Notes under the pieces: model-generated
Database searches by the model: none
What the model saw: only the letters and a program-made list of their open reading frames with translations
Told to the model about the DNA's origin: nothing
Program-made: the position numbers and the translations under genes
Part shown: one piece after another, positions 2,491 through 62,436 of the stretch
Layout of the letters: each line of letters starts with the position of its first letter
Position numbering within the stretch: the stretch's first letter is position 1
From: a virus
IMG/VR virus record: IMGVR_UViG_3300003324_000863
Span: 745-64,744 of that record
DNA length: 64,000 nt
Reading direction: 5' to 3' (one strand)

Positions 2491-5215
2491 CCGCTTCCTC
2501 CTCCTCGTCGTCGTCTTCATCCATCTGGGGGCAGCAGTCCTCCGAGGTGCAGTCCCAGCAGAGGAGCTCGCCGCAGTGGTCACAGGAGTGCTGCCAGTCC
2601 ACCATGCCGTTCCCGCAGAGGACGCAGTGGTACTGGTACTCCACTTCCTCCTCGGACTCCTCGTACTCCGGGACGGGCTCGACGATCTTGGTGTCTGGGA
2701 TAAGCTGCTTATTGCAGGAGTCCTCCCCGATCAGGCAGCAGGACTCCGGTGCCGTGTAGGCAAGGCAGTTCTCGTGGATGTTGCCGACCCGGATATCCCC
2801 GTCGACCACCGGCAGCTGCTTGTACGTCATCTTGGAGTGGGCCAGGGACTTGATGTGGTCCAGAGCCAGAGCCTTCAGGTAGCTCTGGCAGTTGTCGCAG
2901 ACCCCAATGTCGTCGAGATTCACGTTGACTGCCGTGTACCCCGGCTCTCCGCCCCGCTTGTACTGGATGTGGACGAAGCCCTGCTCGGGCACCCACCGTC
3001 CCTGGGCGTAGGTCACCGGCGGCAGGGTCACCACCGTCGGCTCGGGCTTCGGCGCCTGGGCAAGGATCGCCTTGGCCAGCTCACCCACGGTCATTCCCAC
3101 GGTTCCTGACTGGGGTGGCGCCGACATCTTCATGGCCGCTTCGTACTTCTTCTTGTTGGCGGCGATGAGCTTCGCCTCGTACTCTGCGTGGGCCTTGGCC
3201 TGCTTCTCCAGCTCGACCTGCTTGCGGTACTCATGATCTCGGATGATCCGCTCGGTCTTGGGATCGGGCACCCAGGTCGGGACAGTGTGCATCTTGCCGA
3301 GCACCGAGATCACCCGGTCTCCCATCTCGAAGACCGTGCCGTCCCGCCGCAGCCGCTCCGCTTCCCAGATGGAGATCGCTGCTCGGGCGGGCACGATGGG
3401 ATGGCCCTGGGCTGCGAGGTCGAAGGTGTGGCCGTGGGCCCACTTGTTCAGCCACCAGCCCCCGTTGTGGACCTGGTCGACGGCGACGTTGAGGGCCTTG
3501 GCCAGGCCGTCCACCTCCAGCTTCCCCGTAACGAAGTCCCGGATGGCCTGGTCGACCTGGAGCGTCGCCACCGCGCAGTCCTTCCACCGCCGACCGCCGA
3601 TGGACCCCGCTCCCCAGGGGTACTTCTCAAAGATCCATCGGGCCCGCTCCAAGGCCTGCCGTCCCCCGAACGGAGACCGGAAGCTCTCCGTGTACACCTC
3701 CTCCCGCGTCCGCTCCCGCCGGGCCAGCCGGGCATGCCGTGCCTCACCGAGACAGGCCGCCGATCCGTACCGCAGGATCATGGCCATGGCATAGCCGATG
3801 TGGTACGTATCCTGACCGCGGAGGAGGCCGGAGTTGTGGGCTGCCCAGACCAGGTGGTTGATCTTCGACGCATGGCCAACGTATGCCGTGCCCTGATCGT
3901 AGTCCAGCTGCTTCTTGATGTGCTTCAGGTCCGTCATGAAGCCGGCGACCAGTCCATCCAGTGCCGCCTCCCTGCTGTAGGGCTCGAGATCGAACGTCGG
4001 TTCAAGCACGTCTCCGACCTGGGGCTCGAAGCTGATGACGATCGGGATGCGGGACGAGAGACAGTGGGCGCCGTAGTGGGTCGCCAAGCTGCCGCCTGGG
4101 TGGTAGACCACGGTACCCGGCTCGAACTCCTTGACCTTCCGCTCCCATTCGAGGAGGTCACCTGACGCTTCGACGACGTGCTGGACGGTCATCTTCTCGG
4201 GGATGTAGTCCCGCTTGCCCTCGGCCTTGGGCCCGGCCCGGAGCTGGACGAACTTGGCGCCCCCGTTCTCGTCGATGACCACCTCGAAGTAGGGATGCTC
4301 ATCGGCCACGTCCACCCCGGCGTTCTTCATCCGGTGGGCATGCTCGATGTGCCACTCGGATGCCTGGGGTAGGACCACCGCACCCTTCCCACTCGTCGCC
4401 CCGTCGTGCCCGGGTCCGATGGTGAGGAGGTTCGGGGTCCAGACCACGTTCAGCTGCGCATTGACCGGCGGCATGAGGATCAGCTCAGCCTCGGGGTCCT
4501 CGGCCAGTGCCTCCTCCAGGACCTTGACCGCCTCGTCTGCGGTCTTCACCTTCCGGCTATCGACGAAGCCGTGGCGTGGCCGAGTGGGGGCAGGCCGGGC
4601 GAACACCTCACCGATCGGGTTCTTGAACCGCCCCGACTTGTGATGGAAGGCGAAGCGCACCCCGTCCGCATCCTGGGCCACGACGTAGCTCAGGGTCGGG
4701 AGGCTGAAGCCAGGGAGCTGGGGCAGCCCCTTCGCCTTCTGGGTACGGAGCCGCTTGGCATCCGTGTACACCCCGTAGGCCTCGGGATCATAGACCCACG
4801 CCTTCGGCACCTCGACCCTGGGTGCAGAGCTGACCCCCGTTCCGCCGACCGAGGAGCGGAAGACCCCCAGCATCTCCTCGAAGCTGATCGCCTTCGGCGC
4901 GTCCAGGGTAGCGGGGATCTCCGCCCCGATCTCCACCTGAGGGGACTCCTCTAGGGCATCGTCGGAGACAGGCACGATCCATTCCTCCTTGTACCCGAAG
5001 GCCGTAGAGGAGTAGTAGGTAGGGTCCTCCCCCGGGTCAGGGATAGGGGCCGGCTCGGGCCACGTCACCTGGTAGTCGTAGAAGCCTCCGGGCTCGAGAA
5101 CGTTCGCCACTGTACCGACCAGGTGATCCGGGGGGCAGTTGGCGCCTGAGTTGGGGTTGACCTTGACCTTCATCCCAACCTTCAGCTTGGTCGGCGTGTC
5201 AACGAGTGCTGCCAT
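2471..5215 (-). CDS. Large protein with PEP-synthase-like phosphohistidine swivelling motif
   Basis: 914 residues. The N-terminus (VGMKVKVNPNSGANCPPDHL) looks like an SH3/KOW-type barrel. Mid-protein, LLTIGPGHDGATSGKGAVVL and AKFVQLRAGP recall the end of an ATP-grasp-like dikinase unit. PGGSLATHYGAHCLSSRIPI then matches the GG-x-(S/T)H-x-A-x-x-(A/C)R-x-x-x-IP signature around the phosphohistidine of PEP-utilising enzymes, with the His kept. A long helical, charged region follows, then C-terminal CxxC zinc ribbons (CVLCGNG, CDHCGELLCWDC) and an acidic tail. No complete PEP-synthase catalytic domain is evident, so the reaction is unknown. ATG at 5215 has CCTCCTTT (plus strand) as its SD. It overlaps the phosphatase-like gene. 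Confidence 0.72.
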   Translation of the reverse strand: MAALVDTPTKLKVGMKVKVNPNSGANCPPDHLVGTVANVLEPGGFYDYQVTWPEPAPIPDPGEDPTYYSSTAFGYKEEWIVPVSDDALEESPQVEIGAEIPATLDAPKAISFEEMLGVFRSSVGGTGVSSAPRVEVPKAWVYDPEAYGVYTDAKRLRTQKAKGLPQLPGFSLPTLSYVVAQDADGVRFAFHHKSGRFKNPIGEVFARPAPTRPRHGFVDSRKVKTADEAVKVLEEALAEDPEAELILMPPVNAQLNVVWTPNLLTIGPGHDGATSGKGAVVLPQASEWHIEHAHRMKNAGVDVADEHPYFEVVIDENGGAKFVQLRAGPKAEGKRDYIPEKMTVQHVVEASGDLLEWERKVKEFEPGTVVYHPGGSLATHYGAHCLSSRIPIVISFEPQVGDVLEPTFDLEPYSREAALDGLVAGFMTDLKHIKKQLDYDQGTAYVGHASKINHLVWAAHNSGLLRGQDTYHIGYAMAMILRYGSAACLGEARHARLARRERTREEVYTESFRSPFGGRQALERARWIFEKYPWGAGSIGGRRWKDCAVATLQVDQAIRDFVTGKLEVDGLAKALNVAVDQVHNGGWWLNKWAHGHTFDLAAQGHPIVPARAAISIWEAERLRRDGTVFEMGDRVISVLGKMHTVPTWVPDPKTERIIRDHEYRKQVELEKQAKAHAEYEAKLIAANKKKYEAAMKMSAPPQSGTVGMTVGELAKAILAQAPKPEPTVVTLPPVTYAQGRWVPEQGFVHIQYKRGGEPGYTAVNVNLDDIGVCDNCQSYLKALALDHIKSLAHSKMTYKQLPVVDGDIRVGNIHENCLAYTAPESCCLIGEDSCNKQLIPDTKIVEPVPEYEESEEEVEYQYHCVLCGNGMVDWQHSCDHCGELLCWDCTSEDCCPQMDEDDDEEEEADEEDED

Positions 5216-5266
5216 GCGTCCTCCTTTCGTCGCATCACTTCACTCCGCGTCAGCGGAGAGCGGAGA

Positions 5267-5280
5267 GTTAAGCGCTTAAC
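5267..5280. promoter_or_regulatory. Operator-like palindrome GTTAAGCGCTTAAC
   Basis: Perfect 14-bp palindrome overlapping the stop codon of the 5268-5534 gene. It is the cleanest member of a dispersed family. Others include ATAAGCTGCTTAT (2700), ATAAGCGCTTAT (6764), TGCTTAATAAGCA (14338), TTAAGCGGCTTAA (22430), TTAAGCGGCTTAT (29410), TTTAAGCGCTAAA (34204), GTTAAGCACTTAAC (39898), TTAAGTACTTAA (51107) and ATAAGCAGCTTAAC (51775). Probably a repressor or other phage protein binding site (inference). Confidence 0.6.
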
Positions 5281-5534
5281 TTGTAGGCCAGCCGCACTAT
5301 CGCTTGCAGCTCCAGCAGACTGATGGGGAGCTGCTCGCCCCGTGGATCGTAGACTCCGGCAGTACTGAAGTGGCCCTCACTCTTGCGGAACTCCTGATCG
5401 GCGGCGTAGGCGATGGCTGCCTGGAACGAGGGGAACCCGGACCGAGAGAGCAGCTTGCCCTCGACCCAGTAGGTGACGCGGTACGAAGGACTGAGCATGC
5501 GCTCGAACTCTGCCTTGTCAAGGACCTTGACCAT
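5268..5534 (-). CDS. Hypothetical 88-residue protein
   Basis: Begins MVKVLDKAEFERMLSPSYRV at ATG 5532-5534. I reject the longer reading from 5663, because it would run through a well-formed promoter (5589-5618). The sequence (YWVEGKLLSRSGFPSFQAAI) suggests a compact alpha/beta protein; the family is not recognised. The last codons and stop form a perfect 14-bp palindrome, GTTAAGCGCTTAAC (5267-5280), one of the dispersed operator-like sites. Confidence 0.68.
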   Translation of the reverse strand: MVKVLDKAEFERMLSPSYRVTYWVEGKLLSRSGFPSFQAAIAYAADQEFRKSEGHFSTAGVYDPRGEQLPISLLELQAIVRLAYKLSA

Positions 5535-5588
5535 TGACCTAACCCCCTTTACCTGGGACTTCGTGACTGTTTCGTTCGGTCGATCGGC

Positions 5589-5618
5589 ATTGTCGCACGA
5601 TCGAGCGGCGGCCGTCAA
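5589..5618 (-). promoter_or_regulatory. Sigma70-type promoter, copy 1
   Basis: On the minus strand: TTGACG, 18 bp, GACAAT. The spacer GCCGCCGCTCGATCGTGC is nearly identical to that of the second copy at 7014-7043. It sits 55 bp upstream of the ATG at 5534, and its flank (CCATC before the -35) is also shared with copy 2. Confidence 0.7.
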
Positions 5619-51254: not shown

Positions 51255-51845
51255 CTACTCACGGTCGAGGAACCTGGCAACGGTTACCCCCCATGGCACC
51301 CCCTGCTTCCTGGGGCTCCGCCGGGTCTTTCGAGGAATGGCGACGAGGTCCTCTGTAACCTGGTCAGCTTCCTGCTGCCACGATTCAATTGTACCAGGTG
51401 AGAGCCCCTTAACGACCGCGCGGCGATAGAACGCCCGGAAGGTCATGGCTACACCGTCCCGGTCCGGCACCCAGATCGGCATCATCTCCAGCTTCCGGCA
51501 GAAGGAGTAGATCGCCATCTGCATGGACCCGATATGCCAGCCCGTATCCCGCTTCCGGTAGACCACATGGCTCCCATCCAGGGACCAGGCGCCCTCGAGG
51601 AGGAGGATCCGGGTATCGAACTCGTGCCGCATCCGGGTGCATTGGGCTTCGAGGCGGCCCGACTTGAGGGAGGAGAGGAAGTCACTGACGGTCTTCCGCT
51701 CCATCCCCAGCCGGACCCCCTCACACTCGATGACGTAGTCGCCGGTCTCGATCATCTTGATCTCGGTACCTGGGATAAGCAGCTTAACTGCGTCCTTGTA
51801 GATCGCCGGTTCGCGGGCATCGACAGTCGCGACCACCTTGTGCAC
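51255..51845 (-). CDS. ERCC4-type nuclease
   Basis: 196 residues from GTG 51843-51845. VVATVDAREP and GDYVIECEGVRLGMERKTVS form the GDx(n)ERKxxxD motif of ERCC4/XPF/Mus81 nucleases, and DFLSSLKSGRLEAQCTRM is the following helix. Cleaves branched DNA. A basic C-terminus (RKTRRSPRKQG) may bind DNA. A TACAATT box (51388) and an ATAAGCAGCTTAAC palindrome (51775) lie inside it. Confidence 0.85.
   Translation of the reverse strand: MHKVVATVDAREPAIYKDAVKLLIPGTEIKMIETGDYVIECEGVRLGMERKTVSDFLSSLKSGRLEAQCTRMRHEFDTRILLLEGAWSLDGSHVVYRKRDTGWHIGSMQMAIYSFCRKLEMMPIWVPDRDGVAMTFRAFYRRAVVKGLSPGTIESWQQEADQVTEDLVAIPRKTRRSPRKQGVPWGVTVARFLDRE
51388..51393 (-). promoter_or_regulatory. TACAATT box
   Basis: Minus-strand ACCTGGTACAATTGAATC, 140 nt upstream of the 51245 gene, inside the ERCC4 nuclease gene. 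Part of the set with 28171, 40650, 46747 and 57550. Confidence 0.4.
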
Positions 51846-51894
51846 TGGCGGACCTCATGCGAGATTCGCCCTCCGACCAGCGGGCCCCCACCCG

Positions 51895-52326
51895 CTAGGC
51901 TGCCTCTGGATCAGGCAGCGGATCGATCCCTTCCGGCCACTTGTCCCTCGGCACGTCATGCCAGAAGGAACATCGGGGCCAGGATCGCAGCCGTTCCGGT
52001 TCCTTCGGCGCATCCGGCCCGTAGAAGTTCTGGTACCAGGGGAAGCCGGCGCAGATCTCCGGCTTACGATCCTGGGCCATGCACTCGTGCGTCTCACGGT
52101 CGTACTGATCGCACTCGTAGTACGGTCCGGACCCCTGGAACCCGAGTCGTTCGGACGCTGTCTTCTTACTGATCCGGTGCCAGTGTTCCCGGAGGAACGG
52201 GCCATCCGTCTTGATGATGTTCCCGTCCCCATCGACCGTAGCATTGATCCCGTCGTGCATGTCCTTCTTCAGCCGAGGGAAGTAGATGGCATCGCAGCAC
52301 ATCCCACACTTCGCACATCCGGTCAT
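51895..52326 (-). CDS. CxxCxxCC (YkgJ/UPF0153-like) protein, copy A
   Basis: 143 residues. GCAKCGMCCDAI at the N-terminus and ECDQYDRETHECMAQDRKPE, then GFPWYQ and WPRCSFWHDVPRDKWPEGID. This is the C-x2-C-x2-CC type of zinc/iron-chelating family. Paralogue of 53058-53465. Probably binds an iron or zinc site; substrate unknown. It flanks a GP88-like gene. Confidence 0.75.
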   Translation of the reverse strand: MTGCAKCGMCCDAIYFPRLKKDMHDGINATVDGDGNIIKTDGPFLREHWHRISKKTASERLGFQGSGPYYECDQYDRETHECMAQDRKPEICAGFPWYQNFYGPDAPKEPERLRSWPRCSFWHDVPRDKWPEGIDPLPDPEAA

Positions 52327-52334
52327 CCGTCCTC

Positions 52335-52997
52335 CTAGTGCTGATGGTACGAGACTTCGACGCCGGGCTTATCCCAGCAGACCCGGCAGGACCCGCACTG
52401 GTTCCCCTGGTACGCTGCCGGACAGGTGTATCCCTTGGCCGTCGCCGTGGTCCCCGCTGCCAGCCCTGGGATCTTTGGTGGAAGATCGCCGAACTTCAGG
52501 GCAGAGGGACGGAGCGCCACGTTGGGCAGGGCTCCCAGCTCGAGAAGGGCATCCTTCCACTTCGGATTCGCCATGAACTGCCAGGTCCTGGTCGGGATGT
52601 AGAACTTGACGTCCGGGAGCCGCCGGCAGACCTCGGCCCAGGCCCGCACATACGTGGGGTTGAAGAGATCCCCCGAGTCGTGGACCCGGAAGTACGGGTT
52701 CTTCGTCGCCTTGATCGCTCCGACCATGGTGGAGATGAACTCCTCGATCCCCTCGGGCGCCCGCATGCACTGGGTCACCCACTGGAACCGGAGCGCCTGG
52801 GACTCGCGGACGTTGGGGAACGTGTACATCCCCTTGTCCGCGTAGCATGCCCCGCAGATCGTATCCGGCCCGAACACCGCTGCCGGGCACGCCTTCTTCG
52901 CTGGGAGAGACCAGGACTTACACGGCATCTTCGAGGTCCTGGTTAGGAGAGACGTACTGGTATTGGGTACAGTACGCCTAGCGCTGAGGTTTGGCAC
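52335..52997 (-). CDS. Phage GP88-family protein
   Basis: 220 residues from GTG 52995-52997, with GGAGGGGTGA upstream; the family opening LLTRTSKMPCKSWSLPAKKA supports this start. CGACYADKGMYTFPNVRES and YFRVHDSGDLFNPTYVRAWA are family hallmarks; CGSCRVCW gives a further Cys cluster. Gene product 88 proteins are widespread in phages, with no settled function. Several Cys clusters suggest a metal or Fe-S site. Confidence 0.78.
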   Translation of the reverse strand: MPNLSARRTVPNTSTSLLTRTSKMPCKSWSLPAKKACPAAVFGPDTICGACYADKGMYTFPNVRESQALRFQWVTQCMRAPEGIEEFISTMVGAIKATKNPYFRVHDSGDLFNPTYVRAWAEVCRRLPDVKFYIPTRTWQFMANPKWKDALLELGALPNVALRPSALKFGDLPPKIPGLAAGTTATAKGYTCPAAYQGNQCGSCRVCWDKPGVEVSYHQH

Positions 52998-53057
52998 TCA
53001 CCCCTCCGCGTTAGGCCGGGGGTACAGGGATTAGGCCCCCTGCCCCCGGCCGATTCT

Positions 53058-53465
53058 CTAGCTATAGATCTTTGGCACGTTCGGGTCGGGGAGTGGATCG
53101 GTCCCCGCGAGCCACTGCTGCTTTGGCAAGTCATGCCAATAACTACACTTGGGCCACCACCGGATCCGCTGGGCCTCGGGCTGGCCGGTGTACCAGGGGA
53201 ACCCCGTGCAGACGTAGGGCTTCTCCCAGCCCGCCATGCACTGGTGGGTCTCCTTGTTGTACTTGTCGCACTCGTAGGTGCTCATCCCCTTCAGCTCCTC
53301 CTCGGGGATGTTCGGGTTCCGCTTCAGCACCTCGGCCCTGGAGATCGGATGCCAGTGCTTGTTGACGAAGCCCCGGGATGGGTCACCATAGGCCCAGTTG
53401 GACTTCGGCTTGTCGACGACGATCGCTTCGCAACACGACCCACACTGCGCACACCCGGCCCCCAT
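53058..53465 (-). CDS. CxxCxxCC (YkgJ/UPF0153-like) protein, copy B
   Basis: 135 residues. GCAQCGSCCEAIVV, then YECDKYNKETHQCMAGWEKP, GFPWYTG and WPKCSYWHDLPKQQWLAGTD match copy A. The pair flanks the GP88-like gene, one on each side. Probably a gene duplication around the central gene. Confidence 0.75.
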   Translation of the reverse strand: MGAGCAQCGSCCEAIVVDKPKSNWAYGDPSRGFVNKHWHPISRAEVLKRNPNIPEEELKGMSTYECDKYNKETHQCMAGWEKPYVCTGFPWYTGQPEAQRIRWWPKCSYWHDLPKQQWLAGTDPLPDPNVPKIYS

Positions 53466-54197
53466 CTACTCACCCCCCAGCAGCGAGCGGAGCGTGGCGT
53501 AGTCCGGGTCGGGGAAGCGGAACCCCCGCAGCTTCGGGTTCGACCGGCAGCTCTCGATCGTGGCATGGAACTTCTTGTCGGTCTGGTCCTGCTCCATGCG
53601 GATCGTCACCCCCGCATAGGCCGGCACCTCACCCCAGCCCTGCATCTTGAACTGGCCGGGGATCTCGTTACCGCCGTTGTCATAGACCTTGGCCGCGCGG
53701 TGGATCAGCACGAGGTTGACGTTGGGCAGGTTCCAGGCCTGGTTGATGTAGTCGCCGGTCCGGACGTTGGCCTCGGCGTAGTCGAACGGGAAGACCTTGA
53801 CATCCTCCTCACTCTTGTTCGACGACTTTGCCCGCCGCGCCCGGACCTCGTTCAGCTTGGCGTTGTCGATGAGCTGCCGGATCTGGGTGTAGGTATCCAC
53901 GACCACGGTGCCGCTCCTCTTCGATGCTTCGCGGAGCGCCTCGCCGTAGTCCTGCTCGAACTGGGCCAGGGTCTGCTCGGCGCTGATCCCGTTGAGGAGG
54001 CCGGTCTTGATATGCGAGACATAGATCTCTTCGTCGGGGAACTTCTGGATCACGCCCTCCAGGGACCCGGCGTCCAGTCCGAGGTAGTAGAGCGGCTTCG
54101 GGAAGGTCAGGGCTGTATGGGTCTTCCCCTCCTTCTCCCGGCCCCACAGGGCGCAGATGATGCGGAATGGAATCGTAGTTACTTTCTCGAAAGGCAT
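53466..54197 (-). CDS. Sak4-like RecA-fold ATPase
   Basis: 243 residues. Walker A GREKEGKTHTA, Walker B SGTVVVDTYTQI, and VNLVLIHRA as in RecA-like Sak4 ATPases. These anneal single-stranded phage DNA with the help of an SSB. Neighbouring genes (Cas4-like nuclease, SSB-like, helicase, polymerase) fit a recombination/replication module. Confidence 0.78.
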   Translation of the reverse strand: MPFEKVTTIPFRIICALWGREKEGKTHTALTFPKPLYYLGLDAGSLEGVIQKFPDEEIYVSHIKTGLLNGISAEQTLAQFEQDYGEALREASKRSGTVVVDTYTQIRQLIDNAKLNEVRARRAKSSNKSEEDVKVFPFDYAEANVRTGDYINQAWNLPNVNLVLIHRAAKVYDNGGNEIPGQFKMQGWGEVPAYAGVTIRMEQDQTDKKFHATIESCRSNPKLRGFRFPDPDYATLRSLLGGE

Positions 54198-54206
54198 TCG
54201 TCCTCC

Positions 54207-54365
54207 TTAGCTCAGATCGATCACGACGGCGATGAGGTTGAGGATCACGACGACAACGTCGAAGAGTACCAAGCCAGCCTTTCCTCGTATGGCATCATTG
54301 ACCGCCTCGCGCGCCATCCACCCAGCGGCGGCAGTGCTGAGGAGTAACCCCCACGGAACGGTCAT
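54207..54365 (-). CDS. Small membrane protein
   Basis: 52 residues from ATG 54363-54365 (MTVPWGLLLSTAAAGWMARE), AAGGAGGAC upstream. Two hydrophobic segments, the second being LVLFDVVVVILNLIAVVIDL. Function unknown. 54366-54445 contains a minus-strand stem GGCGGC ... GCCGCC (54403-54433). Confidence 0.58.
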   Translation of the reverse strand: MTVPWGLLLSTAAAGWMAREAVNDAIRGKAGLVLFDVVVVILNLIAVVIDLS

Positions 54366-54445
54366 AGTGTCCTCCTTGTGTACGTAGATTTGCCGAGCGT
54401 AAGGCGGCACCCCAAGGCCGAGGCCCCGCCGCCGGAAGTCTTTGT

Positions 54446-54631
54446 CTAGCCCGCGTTCGGACCAGGCTCCTCGGTCACCTCGACCTGAATCTCCCCGTAG
54501 TCGTAGCTGAAGCCGCGGTGCAGGTATTCCTGTATGGCATCAGCGCTGTACCAGTCGATGCCCGAGGCCAGCGAGCTCTCCCGCACGGAGTCGGGGATGA
54601 GGAAGGTCACCTTGTACTCCCGCTTGATCAT
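54446..54631 (-). CDS. Hypothetical 61-residue protein
   Basis: From ATG 54629-54631 (MIKREYKVTFLIPDSVRESS), overlapping the nuclease stop by ATGA. Short alpha/beta protein; ends acidic. Its TAG is followed by ACAAAGAC and GC-rich inverted repeats similar to 7090-7125. Confidence 0.58.
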   Translation of the reverse strand: MIKREYKVTFLIPDSVRESSLASGIDWYSADAIQEYLHRGFSYDYGEIQVEVTEEPGPNAG

Positions 54632-55365
54632 GCCTCTCCCTTCAGCAGCTTCTCCGCCTCGAACCAGTGGTGCTCCCGGCCCGGCCCCCCGGGGCACAGC
54701 GTTCCCTTGGCGGGGCAGTACTTACACTGCCAGGCCACATGCTGGTCGAAGAGTATGGCCCGGACGTTATCGTTCCAGAGCGGATCCCGGTCGGCAGGCT
54801 CATACCCCTCGACCGCAGCGACGAGGAGTCGGAGACGCGCGATCAGCTCTTCTCCCCAGGCCTGGAGCTCATCGTCGGAGAACTCGAAGCTGTAAGCCTT
54901 GGCCACCTTCTTGTAACCAGTGTTGTGGATGACGTACAGCCGCCCCTCGTTCACTTGGAGCATCCAGCAGTAGGCGGCGAGCTGCTCGACGTAGGTATCG
55001 CTGACCTTGCCGGGCGCCATGCTGGTCGTTTTCAGCTCGCAGGGGATCTCACCGTCCATGAAGTCGACGTAGCCGGTGATCTCCATCTCATACATCGGGG
55101 CCGTCCAGTACACGGGCACGTCTTCCTCGGTCCCAGCCTTGCCGAACACCCCGTGGCCCGATGTCCCCAGGAGCAGGGTCAGCATGGACTGGGTATCAGG
55201 CGCGTCGGTGATCTGCCCGGTCCGCTGGTAGTACGCCTTGAGGAGGCAGCCGATCAGTGTCGTGACCCCGGCCGACTTGGGATTGTAGGGGTGCTTCCGC
55301 TCCTGAGCGTTCCATGCCGCCTCGACGAACGCCTGTGCCAGGTCGGCCCGCTCCTCGACGATCAC
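54628..55365 (-). CDS. Cas4-like PD-(D/E)XK nuclease
   Basis: 245 residues from GTG 55363-55365 (overlapping the previous stop by GTGA). ITGYVDFMDGEIPCELKTTS holds the D...(E)xK core, and QLAAYCWML the QxxxY motif. Cys in TTLIGCLLK and the C-terminal CKYCPAKGTLC give the four-Cys iron-sulphur site of Cas4/AddB-type nucleases. No other cas genes or CRISPR are near, so a recombination nuclease is likely. Confidence 0.85.
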   Translation of the reverse strand: MIVEERADLAQAFVEAAWNAQERKHPYNPKSAGVTTLIGCLLKAYYQRTGQITDAPDTQSMLTLLLGTSGHGVFGKAGTEEDVPVYWTAPMYEMEITGYVDFMDGEIPCELKTTSMAPGKVSDTYVEQLAAYCWMLQVNEGRLYVIHNTGYKKVAKAYSFEFSDDELQAWGEELIARLRLLVAAVEGYEPADRDPLWNDNVRAILFDQHVAWQCKYCPAKGTLCPGGPGREHHWFEAEKLLKGEA

Positions 55366-55511
55366 GAGGCGATCCCGCAGAGCATGGCGAGGCCGAGGAC
55401 CAGCCAGCCCCACGGCGTCAGCGGCACCAGGTAGGCCCCCATCACCACCAGGATGATCCCCGGCGGGATGAGGTACCAGTTCCCGTGGTACCCAAAGATC
55501 TTATGCAGCAT
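55362..55511 (-). CDS. Tiny two-segment membrane protein
   Basis: 49 residues from ATG 55509-55511: MLHKIFGYHGNWYLIPPGII, two hydrophobic stretches (GIILVVMGAYLVP and WGWLVLGLAMLCGI). The stop overlaps the nuclease GTG. Overlaps the possible 55501 frame upstream by 11 nt. Function unknown. Confidence 0.58.
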   Translation of the reverse strand: MLHKIFGYHGNWYLIPPGIILVVMGAYLVPLTPWGWLVLGLAMLCGIAS

Positions 55512-55764
55512 CCTCCTTCTCCTTTCGCCTTCGCTCGTCGAGCTCTCGCTGGGCCAGAGCCCTTGACTGCTTCCAGATCCGCGGCTTAGTCAGGCCCAGC
55601 TTCCGCTTCTGCTTATGGTTGGGCCCCGGGTGCGGTCCCGTTAGGTACGAGGACTGGCGAACCGTCCGGGTTGGCCACTGGTACCGGGACGTAGCGCTTG
55701 AGGTCGTAGTCCCATCGGATGTTGGCTGGGAATGGCTGATCGCAGATGGCGTGGGGGAATCCAA
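55501..55764 (-). CDS. Possible frame with basic helical end (start unclear)
   Basis: The last 45 residues (KQKRKLGLTKPRIWKQSRAL ... ERRRKEKEDAA) look like real coding sequence, but no ATG/GTG/TTG lies near the end of the upstream gene; the TTG at 55762-55764 is deep inside it. It may be joined to the 55613-56116 gene by a +1 shift near its end, or start at a rare codon. Confidence 0.35.
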   Translation of the reverse strand: MDSPTPSAISHSQPTSDGTTTSSATSRYQWPTRTVRQSSYLTGPHPGPNHKQKRKLGLTKPRIWKQSRALAQRELDERRRKEKEDAA

Positions 55765-56116
55765 GCGGGGCCTCCTGATGCACGTAGCTCTTGTCCTTGT
55801 ACCTCGTCGTCTCGTCCTGCGGCAGCACGGGCGCCATCTGCATATAGTCCAGGTACAGCTTGAGGATCAGGACCCCATAGACCGCCCGATCGAGGAGGTT
55901 GTCGTACAGCTCCTCGTAGGGACGGCCTGCTTTCAGCATGTTCTCGGTGCGGGTGTCCTTGTCCCCGGCCCGGATCAGCGCGCCCTGCCAGGCTGGTATC
56001 CCCATCCGCTCACAGCGCCGCAGGTTGTCGTACTCGTCGAGGTGATTCCCATACCCGGCCTCGCCCTTATGCACATGGACCTTCCCGATGAACTCGAGCA
56101 CCTCGTCGAACGTCAT
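55613..56116 (-). CDS. Hypothetical DUF1599-like protein
   Basis: 167 residues (MTFDEVLEFIGKVHVHKGEA). GYGNHLDEYDNLRRCERMGI, RAGDKDTRTENMLKAGRPYE and LYDNLLDRAVYGVLILKLYL resemble the nucleotide modification-associated DUF1599 pattern (R..DK, DxxxDxxxY). The end is Pro-rich. It could act on nucleotides, though the call is by memory of the family pattern. Confidence 0.55.
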   Translation of the reverse strand: MTFDEVLEFIGKVHVHKGEAGYGNHLDEYDNLRRCERMGIPAWQGALIRAGDKDTRTENMLKAGRPYEELYDNLLDRAVYGVLILKLYLDYMQMAPVLPQDETTRYKDKSYVHQEAPLGFPHAICDQPFPANIRWDYDLKRYVPVPVANPDGSPVLVPNGTAPGAQP

Positions 56117-56119
56117 AGG

Positions 56120-56194
56120 TCACCCCCTTGAATGTCTGGCTGCCACGAGCAGGATCACCAGGATGAATAGCGCGGCGAAGACCAATGCCCCCAT
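56120..56194 (-). CDS. Tiny membrane peptide
   Basis: 24 residues from ATG 56192-56194: MGALVFAALFILVILLVAAR. One membrane segment with a short basic tail; AAGGAGG upstream. Two similar genes follow directly upstream, so the run looks like a set of small membrane proteins. Confidence 0.5.
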   Translation of the reverse strand: MGALVFAALFILVILLVAARHSRG

Positions 56195-56204
56195 CTTCCC
56201 TCCT

Positions 56205-56288
56205 TCACTTCGAGTACGCGGCCGTGACCCAGATGGCCACGATGATCGCCGCCCCCGTCAGCAGGCCCACGAAGAACACCCCGTCCAT
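56205..56288 (-). CDS. Tiny membrane peptide
   Basis: 27 residues from ATG 56286-56288 (MDGVFFVGLLTGAAIIVAIW); single membrane span. The start overlaps the stop of 56288-56692. Function unknown. Confidence 0.5.
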   Translation of the reverse strand: MDGVFFVGLLTGAAIIVAIWVTAAYSK

Positions 56289-56692
56289 CACTTGCCTCCC
56301 GCGGCCTTGCCCAGGAGCTGCATGATCGTGGCCCCCTCCGGTGCGATGAGGACTGGCAGCCAGTACGCGAGCGAGCTGAGGATGCAGATCGACCCCAGAA
56401 CTGCGCCTGGCACGGAGACGACAGCGACCAGCCCAAGAAAGTCTCCGCTGGTGGGAAACTCTCCAGCTGACCATCCCCCCTGCTTCTGGAGCGCTCCTCT
56501 TGCGGCATGGATTAAGATGCCTACGCCCATCCACATCCCAACGAGCGCCGCCAGTAGCACGAGCGTTGTCCCGATGGCCTGCGCCCAGATGTAGCGGACC
56601 ACTGCCGGATAGGCATACTCGAACGCGACCCCGAGCTGGCCAGCGGCATCCCGCAGGAACCCGAGCACCTTGTCAACCGTTTGCTGATCCAT
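56288..56692 (-). CDS. Integral membrane protein (three or four spans)
   Basis: 134 residues. Segments TLVLLAALVGMWMGVGILIH, FLGLVAVVSVPGAVLGSICI and LAYWLPVLIA, with a helical amphipathic N-terminus (TVDKVLGFLRDAAGQLGVAF). Could be a holin, pore or superinfection-exclusion protein; nothing decides. Preceded by a strong terminator (56715-56763). Confidence 0.58.
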   Translation of the reverse strand: MDQQTVDKVLGFLRDAAGQLGVAFEYAYPAVVRYIWAQAIGTTLVLLAALVGMWMGVGILIHAARGALQKQGGWSAGEFPTSGDFLGLVAVVSVPGAVLGSICILSSLAYWLPVLIAPEGATIMQLLGKAAGGK

Positions 56693-56714
56693 GTCCCCTC
56701 CTTACGTTGCAGTG

Positions 56715-56763
56715 TGGAAAAGGGACCGAGGCTCCTCACCCCGGCCCCTCCTCCGGTTGTCCC
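56715..56763 (-). terminator. Terminator between SSB-like and membrane genes
   Basis: Minus-strand GGGACAACCGGAGG ... CCTCGGTCCC stem followed by TTTTCC. It lies between the stop of the SSB-like gene and the ATG of the membrane gene. Confidence 0.7.
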
Positions 56764-56803
56764 AGTCCTTGAGGTCGGTCAGCTCTCAAGGGTTGACCGG
56801 TCT

Positions 56804-57496
56804 CTAGCTCCGGCGGACCACGTCTCCGTCCAACACGGCGAAGCCCTTGTCCACCATCTGCTGGATGATGCTCTCGTCGGCCAGGGCGGCCCCCACATCA
56901 CCACCCTCTTCAGCGGCAACTCTCATCCGCTGGATCCGGGTGAGCCCCTCGATCTTCTTCAGCACGTCACCCAGGGTCAGGTCGTCGAACTCCTTGGCGG
57001 CCGGGGGCTGGTAGGGCTGGGCGCTCACCCCGCCCTCACCCTGGTCCTTCCAGCTGGGATCCTTCCCGAGCGGCGCCAGGTTCTGAGCCAGGGCCTTCTG
57101 CTCTTCTGTCGCCAGGCCCACAGGGATCGTCATGCGCACACCTTTGCCGCCGAACTTCCGGGTCCCGCGGATGAAGAGGCCGATCTTCCCGACGAGCTTG
57201 CCCTGCCCCACCGGGACGATCGATGCGTGCTCGCTCTTGGGGATGGCCTTCTTGAAGCCCTCGATGTACAGGCCCAGCTTGGACGTGGGGCTCGTCGAGT
57301 CGTTGGCCCGCTCATGGAACACCCCACCCTCACTCTGGAGGGCGTAGTCCAGGGGCCGGATGGCGAAGTGCCACTGCTCCCCACTCTCGTTGTACTGGTT
57401 GGGGATGATCTCGTCGGCCACCACCAGGCCCACGAACGGATCGCTGTCCTTCTCCTCGAAGGTACTGGTCAGACCCACGTTGTCGAATGCGCCCAT
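56804..57496 (-). CDS. SSB-like recombination protein (probable)
   Basis: 230 residues. N-terminal beta barrel with PFVGLVVADEIIPNQYNESG, WHFAIRPLDYAL and SKLGLYIEGFKKAI, then a disordered linker and a helical end. Similar sequences sit next to Sak4 ATPases in other phages and act as their single-strand-binding partners. It is the first gene after the GGCTTAA/TACAAT promoter at 57550. Confidence 0.55.
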   Translation of the reverse strand: MGAFDNVGLTSTFEEKDSDPFVGLVVADEIIPNQYNESGEQWHFAIRPLDYALQSEGGVFHERANDSTSPTSKLGLYIEGFKKAIPKSEHASIVPVGQGKLVGKIGLFIRGTRKFGGKGVRMTIPVGLATEEQKALAQNLAPLGKDPSWKDQGEGGVSAQPYQPPAAKEFDDLTLGDVLKKIEGLTRIQRMRVAAEEGGDVGAALADESIIQQMVDKGFAVLDGDVVRRS

Positions 57497-57549
57497 ACTT
57501 CCTCCTTCTCACGCCCCTCTTGGGCGTCTCCTGTTTCACTTGGCTCTCA

Positions 57550-57570
57550 ATTGTACACGATGGTTAAGCC
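57550..57570 (-). promoter_or_regulatory. Promoter with GGCTTAA and TACAAT
   Basis: Minus strand GGCTTAACCATCGTGTACAAT: the GGCTTAA element (57564-57570) and TACAAT (57550-57555), 8 bp apart. It combines the upstream element of the 23085/24913 promoters with the -10 box of the TACAATT group. 54 nt before ATG 57496. Confidence 0.55.
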
Positions 57571-57571
57571 A

Positions 57572-57775
57572 CTAAATCTTCACCTCCATCCCGGGGTGGA
57601 ATAGCTCCGACAGCTTCTTCCACATCTCCATCAGTGCCCCAGCCTCCCCGACGAACTCCATCCGGATCTCCATCTCATGGGCTGGAGGGATTACCGGAGC
57701 GCCCCCCAGTGCGTAGTGTCCATAGGTGGCCGACGACTTCATGTCCGCATCCATCTTCACGAGAATCGTCTTCAC
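57572..57775 (-). CDS. Hypothetical 67-residue protein
   Basis: From GTG 57773-57775 (VKTILVKMDADMKSSATYGH), overlapping the helicase stop by GTGA. Beta-alpha pattern, ending EMWKKLSELFHPGMEVKI. Possibly a helicase-associated small protein; unknown. Confidence 0.58.
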   Translation of the reverse strand: MKTILVKMDADMKSSATYGHYALGGAPVIPPAHEMEIRMEFVGEAGALMEMWKKLSELFHPGMEVKI

Positions 57776-59247
57776 TTCACCACTGCCTCCAAGAACCAGT
57801 TGGGTAAGAACCTCTTCGCCGCGTGCTTGAACCACCCGAAGTTGGCATCACACAGGTACGTGATCCCCCAGTCATCCTCGGCCCGCATCGCCCGCCCGTA
57901 GGCTTGAACCAGGGCGCTTGCCGTGTCGTAGATGGCCATGTCCTTCCCGACCTGGCTCCTCGCCTGGGCTACCCTCACTGGATCTGACCGATCGGGGAAG
58001 GGCAGCTTGAGGATCACCTGGAACCGACACTGCTCGAACGGTGCATCGAACCCCACCATCGCACTAGGGGAGATCAATACCGCAGGGAACGTAGCACTTC
58101 GGTAGTTCCGGAACGTCTGCTCTCGGTCCTTGCTGTCGTGGCACAACAACCGATGCGTATTCCTCGAACGGCGTAAGACTTCCTGGGTCAGCCGGTAGCT
58201 CACGCTGTGGATGATCCCCTTGTCCCCCGGGTGCGCCTCCAGGATCCGGTCCACCTCCTCCACCAGGCTCGCGATCTCGTCCTCCCCCATCGATGCCGAG
58301 ACCTTCGTAACTAATCTCAAGCGTAAGGGTCTTCGTTCCACTGGGAACGGCGAAGGTATATCGAAGAAGGCAGTCCGATCCATCGCCAACCCCAACTGCC
58401 GACAGAAGAGATATGGGTCCAGGATGGTGGCGGACATAATAACGGCACGCTTTGACCAGGAGAGAATAGTCGGAGACGCCCACATCCCCGCCCACACGGG
58501 CTTCACGCTCCACCCGTAGGGTTCCTCGACCACGAGCCTTTCGCCTGAGCCATTCAAACACTGGACGTACTCCTCTACAGCCTTGGCCGACCGAGCATGT
58601 CTCTTGTCCTCCGTCTTGGGAATCTCGACCCGCTTTCCCCAAGCTCGCCACTCCTCGATCCCAGTTCCGCGCGGAGGATGTGGAGCGTCGACGGATGCAA
58701 GATCCCCCCGCTTGAGATCGCGAGCCATCCAACTAGACATCTCAGAAGCCAGCTCATGGCCCTCATCACACACGAGGAGCTCGGGCTTGAACCCGGAGTC
58801 TGGCTCCATGTTCCGGAGTGCGTAACTGTAATTGGTCACCACCTCCCTACTCTGAATCGCTGCCCTCTTGGCATCGTAATAGCTACACCCAGGTAGCCCT
58901 GTCGGCCCGGCGTAGTCACAGGGGATCCCGAAGGTGCAGTTCCCCCAGTCCGCCTGGAGTCTCTCATCGATCTTGCACCGGAAGTTCTGCCGGCCCCGCA
59001 TGTCCACCATCCCACCCATGCTGAGGTACTGGTCCTGCAGCTGCTTGGTGCTGGTGAGGTACATGGTCTGGGACGGGCTGAGCATGCGGCTCACGAGGAT
59101 GGCGATGGCGGTCTTCCCTACCCCCGGCGGCGCCTGGACCAGGACATGCTGCGCCCCATCCCTGAACTTCCTCACAATCTCCTGTGCCAGCTCGAGCTGC
59201 CCCTCCCGGAAGCTCTCGAATGGCAGGCCCCAATCACTCGGGGTCAT
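57772..59247 (-). CDS. XPD/DinG-like SF2 helicase
   Basis: 491 residues. Motif I QAPPGVGKTAIAI, four Cys of an Fe-S domain (NFRCKID, GNCTFGIPCDYAG, LPGCSY), DEGH box VCDEGHEL, and motif VI VQAYGRAMRAEDDWG. A 5'-3' DNA helicase of the XPD/DinG family, probably for replication or recombination. Unwinds branched or repair substrates; ATP-driven. Confidence 0.92.
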   Translation of the reverse strand: MTPSDWGLPFESFREGQLELAQEIVRKFRDGAQHVLVQAPPGVGKTAIAILVSRMLSPSQTMYLTSTKQLQDQYLSMGGMVDMRGRQNFRCKIDERLQADWGNCTFGIPCDYAGPTGLPGCSYYDAKRAAIQSREVVTNYSYALRNMEPDSGFKPELLVCDEGHELASEMSSWMARDLKRGDLASVDAPHPPRGTGIEEWRAWGKRVEIPKTEDKRHARSAKAVEEYVQCLNGSGERLVVEEPYGWSVKPVWAGMWASPTILSWSKRAVIMSATILDPYLFCRQLGLAMDRTAFFDIPSPFPVERRPLRLRLVTKVSASMGEDEIASLVEEVDRILEAHPGDKGIIHSVSYRLTQEVLRRSRNTHRLLCHDSKDREQTFRNYRSATFPAVLISPSAMVGFDAPFEQCRFQVILKLPFPDRSDPVRVAQARSQVGKDMAIYDTASALVQAYGRAMRAEDDWGITYLCDANFGWFKHAAKRFLPNWFLEAVVK

Positions 59248-59447
59248 TCGGTGTTCTGCCTGATCTCACTCGTGACAGGGTCGACATCTATGAATCCAAG
59301 CTCATCGTGTGTGATGAGATGGTTGTCAGTTCCCCAGGGTGATGCATTACTCCAGATACTGATCCCGTGGTCCTCACCTTCGTACACGTCGACCAGGGCA
59401 TTCCCGGGGTACTTCTGCAACTCCTCGATCAGCTCGTCTACGGTCAT
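59244..59447 (-). CDS. Small conserved hypothetical protein
   Basis: 67 residues (MTVDELIEELQKYPGNALVD). DELIEELQKYPGNALVDVYE is a small alpha/beta opening common in phage and bacterial genes. ATGA overlap on both sides. Function unknown. Confidence 0.65.
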   Translation of the reverse strand: MTVDELIEELQKYPGNALVDVYEGEDHGISIWSNASPWGTDNHLITHDELGFIDVDPVTSEIRQNTE

Positions 59448-59911
59448 TCGTCCTCCTCTCTGGATAAGAGCTTAATCACCCCGTCGACCCGGTGGAAGTG
59501 CATCCCGTCCCACTGGTAGTAGCCCCCGTTGATGGCGGGCCGCTCGATGTAGATCCCCAGGGGCTCGTGCCGGTGGTCCTCCTCCCAGTGCTGGGCCATG
59601 AACGCCACGGCCTCCAGGAACGGGGAGATGTCCGACTCCTCATACTCCCAGGCCTGGTCGACATACCCCGTCAGCTCGGGCCAGGGCGAGTCCTCGGTGT
59701 CCCGATGCTGCCGGAAGATATGGATCGCCCCGGGACTCAGGCTCCAGACATGTCCCTCGATCTCACTGGAGAGCCCCACGTTCCCCGGGTTCGAGATGAC
59801 CACCGTCCGCTCGATCGGGGACCAGTGAAAGATCCGGAGGGTCAGTCCACCCTCGAGCTGGATCTCCTCCTTGGGCACGCCTCTGTGCCCATCGCCGTCA
59901 CCGTCCTGCAT
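59444..59911 (-). CDS. Hypothetical beta-rich protein
   Basis: 155 residues (MQDGDGDGHRGVPKEEIQLE), beta segments (LTLRIFHWSPIERTVVISNP), acidic middle and Glu-rich end. Operator-like GATAAGAGCTTAAT near its stop (59463-59475). No family recognised. Confidence 0.58.
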   Translation of the reverse strand: MQDGDGDGHRGVPKEEIQLEGGLTLRIFHWSPIERTVVISNPGNVGLSSEIEGHVWSLSPGAIHIFRQHRDTEDSPWPELTGYVDQAWEYEESDISPFLEAVAFMAQHWEEDHRHEPLGIYIERPAINGGYYQWDGMHFHRVDGVIKLLSREEDE

Positions 59912-60155
59912 GCGTCAGCCACCTCCATGCCTTGGGGCCCCAGACATCGATGGTCCAGGGATGTGCTTCCTTCCGCACCTCGTCGACGACCTTGAGCTGC
60001 GCGATGGCTCCCATCGTGTACCCAATTCGGAACAGCATCTCCTGGTCGGCAACCGTTCCCATCCCGATCTGGCACTGGACAAACTTCCAGTCGTTGGTGA
60101 GATGAGCTTCCCATAGGCGGTCTGCGATGGTCATCTCCTTATCCGGCTTGGGCAA
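59898..60155 (-). CDS. Hypothetical helical protein
   Basis: 85 residues (MPKPDKEMTIADRLWEAHLT). The middle ADQEMLFRIGYTMGAIAQLK is helical. Its start lies inside the end of the polymerase gene by 17 nt. Function unknown. Confidence 0.6.
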   Translation of the reverse strand: MPKPDKEMTIADRLWEAHLTNDWKFVQCQIGMGTVADQEMLFRIGYTMGAIAQLKVVDEVRKEAHPWTIDVWGPKAWRWLTHAGR

Positions 60156-62436
60156 GGTAGACCTCCAAGGGTTCCTGATCGACCCAGTTCGGGCCCGCCG
60201 TCACCTCGACGACTAGGGGCACCATCACCTCAGGAGCCCCGCACTCTGCTCCGATCCGCTGCATCGCTTCGCCCACCTCCTTCACCGCCCCTATGGGCAC
60301 CTCAGCATTGACCTCATCGTGAACCTGGAGCACCGGCACTGCATCGTAGTAGTCGAACACCTCCTGCATCTGGGCCATCCACCGCTTGATGATCCCCGCT
60401 TCCGTTGCCTGGATGGGCATGTTCGCCGCCTCCCTCAAGGCTGCCGCCTTCTCCCGGTAGATCGGGCTGAAGTACTGGGGGTAGTAGTTCATCCATCCGT
60501 ACTTGCTCTCCACATACCCATGCATCTCGAGGAACCGTTCCACCGTCTCGGGCCACTCCAGGAAGGCGGGCATCCTGGTCTTGATGGTCTTGAGGAACGC
60601 ATCCGCCTCCCCTGCCGGGACGCCCGCTGTGACCGCCAGCTTATCGATCGCTACTCCGAACATGACTGCGAACAGGCTGTTCTTCGCCGGCTTCCGATCG
60701 ATCCCGAGCATATCCGCCGCAGCCTGATGGACGTCCTGGCCCGTTCGATACGCTTCCAGAAGGACGGGCTCCTGGGTGTAGTCCGCGAAGACCCGAACCT
60801 GTAGCTGAGAAAAGTCACCGTGTACCCAGACGTGGCCGGGTCGAGCGACAAATGCACGTCGTAGTTGCTTGCCAAGATCAGTCCGTGCCGGAACGTTCTG
60901 CAGATTAGGCTTGCTCGAGCTGAGCCGATCCGTATCTGTAACTGTCTGGTGGTACTGGGTGTGGACCCGGCCCTCGCCATCCCGCAGAGCCAGGAGCTTT
61001 CGGACGTAAGTGGATCGGAACTTGATGAGGCCACGTCGATCGAGAACCGCCTGAGCAAACTCCCGAACATCCTCGCCCAGCTCACCCTTGACCACCTCCT
61101 CCAATACAGCCTCATCGACGCAGATCTTCCCGGTCTCGGTGAACTTCTTCGGCACCCATCCCCTGGCCATGAGCCACTCGGCTACCTGCTCGTTGGACCC
61201 GGGGTTCTCGATGTCCGCGTTCGCTTTCAGGAGACCGTCACAATCATCGAGCGCTTCGTTGGCCCACTCTTCCAGACCTGCAAGGATATCCGGATCGACC
61301 AGCACCCCGGCAGATTCCATGCGGTGAAGGATCGGGACCACGGGCTTCTCGAACTCCAGGTAGTAACGTCGCCTGGGCGGGTCCCGATCCAGGAGTTCTC
61401 GAATGATCTCCCAGCACCGGGCAGTAACCACCGCGTCAAGAATCGCATACTCCACCCCTGACTCGTAATCCTCTTCCAGGACCTGACTGAACTTCCGGCC
61501 CTTAGCCACCTCGTTGAACGTCCGCATCTGCATCCGGGTCAGCTTCGGGCCCAGCTCCTTCAGTGCGTGGGGGAGCCGGAGCACGTACGCGGCGAGGAGT
61601 ACGTCCTCCCAGTTCACCTCGTCGAACCCGAGCCCCATCTTCGGGAGGTCTGCCCGGATATGAGCGAACGCGGTGGTCTTCTCTCTGGCCCGGAGCTTCT
61701 CCTGGATGAACGGGAGCTGGTCCGCAGTCCAGAGGTACCCGCACCACGGCGCCGCTACCTGTACCGACACCAGCGTATCCTGCCCGGCCACGTCCCCCTT
61801 GTCCGCGGTATCGTACTCCGTGTCCACCCCGAGCACGTCGGCCGTCCAGTTGGCGTACTGCGTCCACGGTTCTGGCTCGGGCAGCTGCTCCGGTGTCACC
61901 CCGACCAGTTCCTCCACGATCCGTCTGATCTCCGCTTCCCATGCCGTCCGCTTCCCCGGACTCCGGAGGATGTACGCCGGGTGGTAGACGTGGGCCACCA
62001 TCCCCTCGTACCCCGTGTCCTCGAGCACCTTGGCCAAGCCCTTCTCACTGACCTCACCAAGACATAGGATGAGTCGTGGCTTCAGCTTCAGGATCTCGTA
62101 GGCCAGGTACGGGGAGCAGTTCTCCACCTCCTCGGCCGTCGGCTTCCGATCGCCCCCGCCTTTCGGGTTCTTCCCGGGGTAGCACCGCACGGCGTTCGTG
62201 TACCAGGTGCTGAGAAGTGGGAGGTGCTGCTCCATGCAAACGGTGCCGATGATTGTCGCCAACACTGGCCGGATGAGCTGCCCCGCCTGTCCTGCGAACG
62301 GGTATCCTAGCTGGTCTTCCGTCCATCCCGGTGCCTGGCCGATGCACAGGATGTCCACCTTCTCCGGCGGGACCGGGCTCACCACCCTACTCCTGGTCTC
62401 GCACATGCTGGGGCACAAAGAACACGTCTGATTCAT
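60139..62436 (-). CDS. polA: Uracil-DNA glycosylase / DNA polymerase I fusion
   Basis: 765 residues. First 170: UDG family-4-like (CSLCPSMCE, GQAPGWTEDQLGYPFAGQAG, HPAYILRSPGKR) with Cys pairs for an Fe-S cluster. Next, a 3'-5' exonuclease-like region (DTEYDTADKGDVAGQDT, AHIRADLPKMGL, LEEDYESGVEYAILDAVVTA). C-terminal 390: polymerase A, with motif A HGDFSQLQVRVFADYTQEPV, B RKPAKNSLFAVMFGVAI and C LQVHDEVNAEVP. In motif A the usual Glu (DYSQIELR) is Gln. The phage replicative polymerase. Confidence 0.92.
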   Translation of the reverse strand: MNQTCSLCPSMCETRSRVVSPVPPEKVDILCIGQAPGWTEDQLGYPFAGQAGQLIRPVLATIIGTVCMEQHLPLLSTWYTNAVRCYPGKNPKGGGDRKPTAEEVENCSPYLAYEILKLKPRLILCLGEVSEKGLAKVLEDTGYEGMVAHVYHPAYILRSPGKRTAWEAEIRRIVEELVGVTPEQLPEPEPWTQYANWTADVLGVDTEYDTADKGDVAGQDTLVSVQVAAPWCGYLWTADQLPFIQEKLRAREKTTAFAHIRADLPKMGLGFDEVNWEDVLLAAYVLRLPHALKELGPKLTRMQMRTFNEVAKGRKFSQVLEEDYESGVEYAILDAVVTARCWEIIRELLDRDPPRRRYYLEFEKPVVPILHRMESAGVLVDPDILAGLEEWANEALDDCDGLLKANADIENPGSNEQVAEWLMARGWVPKKFTETGKICVDEAVLEEVVKGELGEDVREFAQAVLDRRGLIKFRSTYVRKLLALRDGEGRVHTQYHQTVTDTDRLSSSKPNLQNVPARTDLGKQLRRAFVARPGHVWVHGDFSQLQVRVFADYTQEPVLLEAYRTGQDVHQAAADMLGIDRKPAKNSLFAVMFGVAIDKLAVTAGVPAGEADAFLKTIKTRMPAFLEWPETVERFLEMHGYVESKYGWMNYYPQYFSPIYREKAAALREAANMPIQATEAGIIKRWMAQMQEVFDYYDAVPVLQVHDEVNAEVPIGAVKEVGEAMQRIGAECGAPEVMVPLVVEVTAGPNWVDQEPLEVYLAQAG

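Follow-up and report, generated by a model that had tools for sequence, protein, structure and literature searches.

A gene of the GP88 family (PF17338, named for mycobacteriophage gene product 88) flanked on both sides by genes for small, paralogous CxxCxxCC proteins, here termed A and B, was found in the replication and recombination region of a virus of microbes. In the reading that we prefer, and to which we would give an even chance, GP88 is an enzyme of a compact, non-canonical radical-SAM-like type with a [4Fe-4S] cluster, and the two flanking genes encode lineage-duplicated, probably Fe-S-binding proteins that may assist it. The DNA analysed (64,000 nucleotides, referred to as the window) is part of a virus record of 66,169 bases with a GC content of about 0.63. 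The terminase has its best match in the phage collection in a Methanosarcinales virus (34.5%), and it is conceivable from this match that the host is anaerobic.

The three genes were found where the preliminary description had placed a GP88-family gene between two CxxCxxCC paralogues. All are on the minus strand: gene B (53058..53465) encodes 135 amino acids and scores 21.9 bits against PF03692 (cut-off 23), the GP88 gene (52335..52997) starts with GTG, encodes 220 amino acids and scores 102.7 bits against PF17338 (cut-off 24.4; 102 bits in a search of the whole record), and gene A (51895..52326) encodes 143 amino acids and scores 23.4 bits against PF03692. They belong to a co-directional minus-strand run that is read in the order Sak4-like, B, GP88, A, ERCC4 nuclease, i.e., from a Sak4-like AAA ATPase/ssDNA annealing protein upstream (53466..54197, minus strand; phrog_124 1.3e-10; PF13479 1.6e-11) to an ERCC4-type nuclease downstream (51255..51845, minus strand; PF02732 1.1e-11). 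The gaps between these genes are 0, 60, 8, and 49 bases, in reading order, and Shine-Dalgarno-like motifs precede the starts of A (AGGAGG), GP88 (GGAGGGG), and B (GGGGGG). Farther upstream than the Sak4-like gene are a Cas4-like nuclease, a DinG/YoaA-like helicase, and a family-A DNA polymerase with a family-4 uracil-DNA glycosylase domain, and the setting of the trio is a region of DNA replication and recombination. The flanking that had been called symmetrical is so as a gene order, but all genes point one way and lie within a longer co-directional run.

The motifs that had been quoted for A and B are all present and are found at matching places in the two proteins, with CX2CX2CC starting at residue 4 in A and 5 in B, ECDxY at 71 and 65, WP[RK]CS[FY]W at 116 and 104, and DPLPDP at 135 and 123. 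Both proteins have exactly eight Cys residues (4, 7, 10, 11, 72, 82, 92, and 119 in A; 5, 8, 11, 12, 66, 76, 86, and 107 in B). They share CX2CX2CC with downstream Cys with the PF03692 (CxxCxxCC/YkgJ) family and differ from it in their lengths of 143 and 135 amino acids, the extra WP[KR]CS[FY]W motif and DPLPDP end, and the score of B slightly below the cut-off; a profile search of the whole record likewise placed A above and B below it. Over 147 columns the two proteins share 39% identity (E 4e-35), which is far beyond chance and makes A and B paralogues. As each is only about 32% identical to the copy of Alicyclobacillus phage MMB025, a duplication within this lineage is the simplest history. 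In viral contigs B alone as query found no relatives and A3 found one locus, and among other CxxCxxCC relatives used as queries that of a Vibrio phage gave no loci and that of a Klebsiella phage nine. Loci L076 and L077 were dropped as relatives of A, the underlying open frame being 565 amino acids long. A direct sequence search for solved-structure relatives of the CxxCxxCC proteins gave nothing credible, and the structure prediction for B was poor (pLDDT 50.9). The sole functional precedent found is the lysine methyltransferase FliB, with which A and B share just the small Cys domain; a passage in PMC8598068 describes its CX4CX3CC motif, as opposed to CX2CX2CC in A and B, as binding an oxygen-sensitive [4Fe-4S] cluster that is required for SAM-dependent methyl transfer. 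From this precedent A and B are probably small Fe-S cluster-binding proteins.

GP88 relatives were found at 70 viral-contig loci, in 354 of 50,697 phage records (tblastn), and in 31 of 72,556 plasmid records, and the collection of bacterial genomes gave a single locus with the patterns used. In none of the surveys did the arrangement around GP88 recur. Among 78 other GP88 virus records searched for PF03692 (49 and 21 viral records behind GP88 loci and 8 phage genomes), many of the viral ones being short fragments in which absence is weak evidence and the 8 phage records being searched whole, one had a match above the cut-off, at 6096 and thus about 15 kb from its GP88 gene at 21711 (G031), and another (G019) matched only below it (E 0.0039). 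Two PF03692 genes are present in the bacterial bin to which locus L083 belongs, neither of them within that locus. Conversely, in none of the 16 records from which CxxCxxCC loci had come was GP88 found; the search recovered it in 13 of 13 positive controls. The 16 records include L076 and L077 as false carriers and near-duplicates (L080 with L084–L086, L078 with L082), so that fewer are independent. In a profile scan of 217 loci (11,163 ORFs) the two families co-occurred only in L001, L073, and L075, all of which are the window itself, and in a plain regular-expression survey of 71 loci CxxCxxCC was seen in the window copy alone. Among the four ORFs to either side of GP88, the neighbours that recurred were specific to particular groups, and one weak PolA match was seen; none of the recurrent neighbours matched A, B, Sak4, or ERCC4. 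Twelve annotated GP88 neighbourhoods from phages and plasmids were varied and had no fixed partner, and no DNA-level relatives of the trio were found in phages. A conserved B-GP88-A cassette was rejected on these neighbourhood surveys, and the proposal of a dedicated symmetrical enzyme set was not supported. The survey of GP88 neighbourhoods had been named beforehand as a check, and its outcome, that such neighbours are generally missing, is one half of what the preliminary description had said would speak against it. As far as these searches go, in the literature as well as in sequences, the arrangement is new and a single case, so that the argument for a joint function of A and B with GP88 is their being neighbours in one genome.

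The absence of the pairing elsewhere is what one would expect if A and B were functionally unrelated to GP88, i.e., if they were small PF03692 metal proteins, with a role in redox, host takeover or anti-defence, whose gene had come to lie beside GP88 in one mosaic phage genome and was duplicated around it. This is the strongest of the alternatives, and we consider it somewhat less probable than the preferred reading. It agrees with the phage collection, where the 354 records with GP88 and the 42 records with relatives of B have no organism first word in common, and with the CxxCxxCC relatives of other phages, which are found among small hypothetical genes. On the other hand, A and B are mutually closest among the relatives compared, and they bracket GP88 so tightly, at 8 and 60 bases, that some co-expression is likely.

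The claim that the centre gene has several Cys clusters holds. The Cys residues of GP88 (26, 37, 48, 51, 77, 124, 192, 201, 204, and 207) include C37-X10-C48-X2-C51 and C192-X8-C201-X2-C204-X2-C207. The first of these, followed by Tyr (residues 37–52; 52842..52889, minus strand, computed from the gene start), is family-invariant, being present in 38 of 38 aligned members, i.e., an alignment of 26 sequences with 30–38% identity to the window GP88 to which 8 members from phages and 4 from plasmids were added, the plasmid members being read from 4 of the 31 plasmid records. Invariant in all 38 are C37, C48, C51, Y52, A53, R104, G109, and T136, and the family core can be written C-X(5-14)-C-X(2-3)-C-Y-A. 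The spacing of the first two Cys varies; in the 26-sequence alignment it is X13 in 21, X14 in 3, X12 in 1, and X10 in 1, the last being the window, and, counted from the sequences, the motif reads CX6CX3C in actinophages and CX5CX3C on plasmids. Its score makes the centre gene a full member of PF17338, with which it shares the three-Cys CYA motif and the DSGD strand and from which it departs in having X10 where the actinophage and plasmid members examined have X5–X6, and in its unusual neighbours A and B. The DSGD strand is part of FRVHDSGD (residues 103–110; 52668..52691, minus strand), in which R104 and G109 are the invariant positions. The second Cys site (residues 192–207; 52377..52424, minus strand) is present in 34 of the 38 members, the exceptions being the four plasmid proteins, which score 165–199 bits against PF17338. 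These are encoded on Streptomyces and Embleya linear plasmids (L157–L160) and keep the three-Cys motif. C26 is missing in divergent phage and plasmid members that were retrieved without the pattern SKMPCKSW; this word was dropped as an invariant catalytic motif since it had served as a search pattern and its invariance in the 26-sequence alignment is partly by construction. Streptomyces phage Evy (L097, NC_055809.1) has two equal-scoring GP88 copies (4928–5608 and 126657–127337) near both genome ends, as expected for terminal repeats.

A relation of GP88 to another phage family, DUF5131 (PF07505, phage Gp37/Gp68), was found by profile comparison. The 38-member GP88 alignment matched an alignment of 20 DUF5131 proteins, chosen by motif from 27 loci, with a probability of 91.5% (hhalign; E 8.4e-7, score 52.0), the maximum score of 100 column shuffles being 24.6; smaller GP88 sets gave 54.5 and 66.8%. 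In agreement with this, one DUF5131 protein matches PF17338 slightly below the cut-off (E 4.3e-5, 23.9 bits), three plasmid GP88 proteins match PF07505 at E 0.012–0.06, and the DUF5131 copies inspected have CX6CX2C-YA. The window protein itself has no match to PF07505 at E ≤ 10. Judged by these profiles, the GP88 and DUF5131 families are related yet distinct. The corresponding comparisons with a QueE set were negative, both for GP88 (0.1–0.15%) and for DUF5131 (0.66%).

The AlphaFold2 model of GP88, built from an alignment of 26 rows, has a mean pLDDT of 80.9 and a pTM of 0.83. Direct sequence search for solved-structure relatives of GP88 gave nothing credible, and Foldseek found no match of the model in the PDB at E ≤ 0.001. 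When the model was re-aligned to PDB chains with VIA-align, radical-SAM enzymes took the first eight places and 13 of the first 14; they account for 22 of the 50 chains listed, counted by title and, for some titles, by a class that we take them to have. The best fold match is the PFL-activating enzyme 8fo0 (Z 7.1, rmsd 3.5, 138 residues), and lipoyl synthase 4u0o (Z 6.5, rmsd 3.8, 153 residues), EpeE 8ai2 (Z 6.3, rmsd 4.4, 139 residues), and a viperin-like enzyme 9dfn (Z 6.0, rmsd 3.7, 149 residues) are likewise matches of fold only; all GP88 matches have Z below 8, which is middling by the tool's own scale. The ninth place is taken by a GH18 chitinase (Z 6.1), and most of the remaining chains listed are other TIM barrels. 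In a library of viral models there were 13 matches at E ≤ 0.001, 7 of them named gene product 88, and the next were a DUF7227 protein (1.2e-3) and a Gp37/Gp68-like protein (2.0e-3, probability 1.00); weak matches included QueE (0.31) and Radical_SAM proteins (1.4 and 1.8). The modelled fold is thus suggestive of a radical-SAM enzyme, and such enzymes are the top-ranked structural matches. They differ from GP88 at the sequence level, as the Radical_SAM profile (PF04055) has no match to the window protein at E ≤ 10, the canonical CX3CX2C is not present in it, CX10CX2C being found instead, and no profile similarity to the QueE set was detected. The tie of GP88 and DUF5131 to radical SAM, via fold resemblance and motif logic, is likewise suggestive.

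Middling Z values that are common to generic TIM barrels would also suit a GP88 that is a zinc-dependent protein which has two Cys sites and either binds nucleic acids or plays a structural part, and not a radical enzyme. The C-terminal C-X8-C-X2-C-X2-C could then bind zinc, and zf-CXXC matches weakly there (E 0.027, below its cut-off). We nevertheless regard this as unlikely. The core three-Cys motif persists where the C-terminal site is lost, and it has no fourth conserved Cys, C26 being lost in divergent members; with no further ligand conserved, such a core would be better suited to an open-site [4Fe-4S] cluster than to structural zinc.

Counting the genes farther upstream, as many as six proteins with a probable Fe-S or Cys cluster are encoded within about 11 kb (51255–62436). 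The Cas4-like PD-(D/E)XK nuclease (54628–55413, minus strand; phrog_1706 6.6e-15; TIGR00372 E 6e-4, below cut-off) has Cys 56, 230, 233, and 240. In the DinG/YoaA-like helicase (57772–59247, minus strand) Cys 91, 104, 110, and 121 follow the Walker motif and are likely to mark an XPD/DinG-type Fe-S domain. In the family-A DNA polymerase (60139–62436, minus strand) the N-terminal part is a family-4 uracil-DNA glycosylase domain, which has Cys at 5, 8, and later positions and matches PF03167 (3.4e-24) and, under the cut-off of the profile, TIGR00758 (1.9e-25); the fused protein was covered to at least 80% in 1 of 2,944 matching phage records (MW202455.1), and the patterns used gave no PolA-UDG relatives in viral contigs. 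Family-4 uracil-DNA glycosylases, DinG/XPD-like helicases, and Cas4-like nucleases are families that carry Fe-S clusters. That A and B handle iron or Fe-S and supply the several probable Fe-S enzymes of the replication module, i.e., the glycosylase-polymerase, the helicase, the Cas4-like protein and GP88, would accord with these Cys residues but seems improbable. In the flanks of the 56 viral loci with relatives of the helicase (22–32% identity), neither CxxCxxCC nor GP88 genes were found.

Non-canonical Cys spacing is known in radical-SAM enzymes; a passage in PMC4389238 gives QueE and HmdB as cases and describes the stretched CX14CX2C loop of QueE as still forming a standard cluster. With this precedent for the long-spaced GP88 loop, and with an invariant three-Cys core, C37, C48, and C51 are proposed as the site of a SAM-binding cluster. 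In the preferred reading, with GP88 as a radical-SAM-like enzyme, a [4Fe-4S] cluster would sit in the loop C37-X10-C48-X2-C51 with one of its iron sites left open, and S-adenosylmethionine would bind at this iron beside the FRxxDSGD strand, the suggested counterpart of the radical-SAM GGE strand. An auxiliary cluster (or zinc) would be bound at the C-terminal C-X8-C-X2-C-X2-C. A, B, and GP88 would be expressed together as part of the replication and recombination gene run, and A and B are most plausibly partners of GP88 in electron transfer or substrate handling, or else independent small redox or metal proteins. The likeliest target of GP88 would be a nucleic acid or a nucleotide, a guess made from the gene neighbourhood. 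What the sequences and the model show is the order of the genes, the paralogy of A and B, the families to which the proteins belong, the conserved Cys, the homology of GP88 with DUF5131 and the likeness of fold; the type of cluster, the use of SAM, the partnership and the substrate are inferred. The metal or Fe-S dependence that had been suggested for the trio is accordingly likely for the centre gene, with the three-Cys motif in 38 of 38 members and the radical-SAM fold matches both pointing that way; for A and B there is the PF03692-like motif of FliB, which PMC8598068 links to a [4Fe-4S] cluster. The enzyme set as such was not supported.

It is tempting to go further and speculate that GP88, DUF5131, and DUF7227 form a large phage-borne superfamily of minimal radical-SAM-like enzymes in which the cluster loop is stretched and the auxiliary cluster is detachable, and that in this phage a three-part system carries out a radical modification of replicating phage DNA or its nucleotides, A and B being dedicated to GP88 as Fe-S donors of electrons or as carriers of substrate; this would be a long shot.

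The GP88 and PF03692 families are already known by name. In the part of the literature covered by searches for PF17338/GP88, YkgJ/PF03692, and DUF5131/Gp68, no paper on GP88 function is apparent. GP88-family genes are common in phages and are also found on actinobacterial plasmids. We know of no phage PF03692 protein that has yet been tested for Fe-S binding, and A and B would be the first examples. If the radical-SAM-like reading of GP88 is true, a whole phage family of "unknown" proteins would become a directly testable enzyme class, and GP88 may have roles in the modification of DNA, RNA, or nucleotides and in the evasion of host defences.
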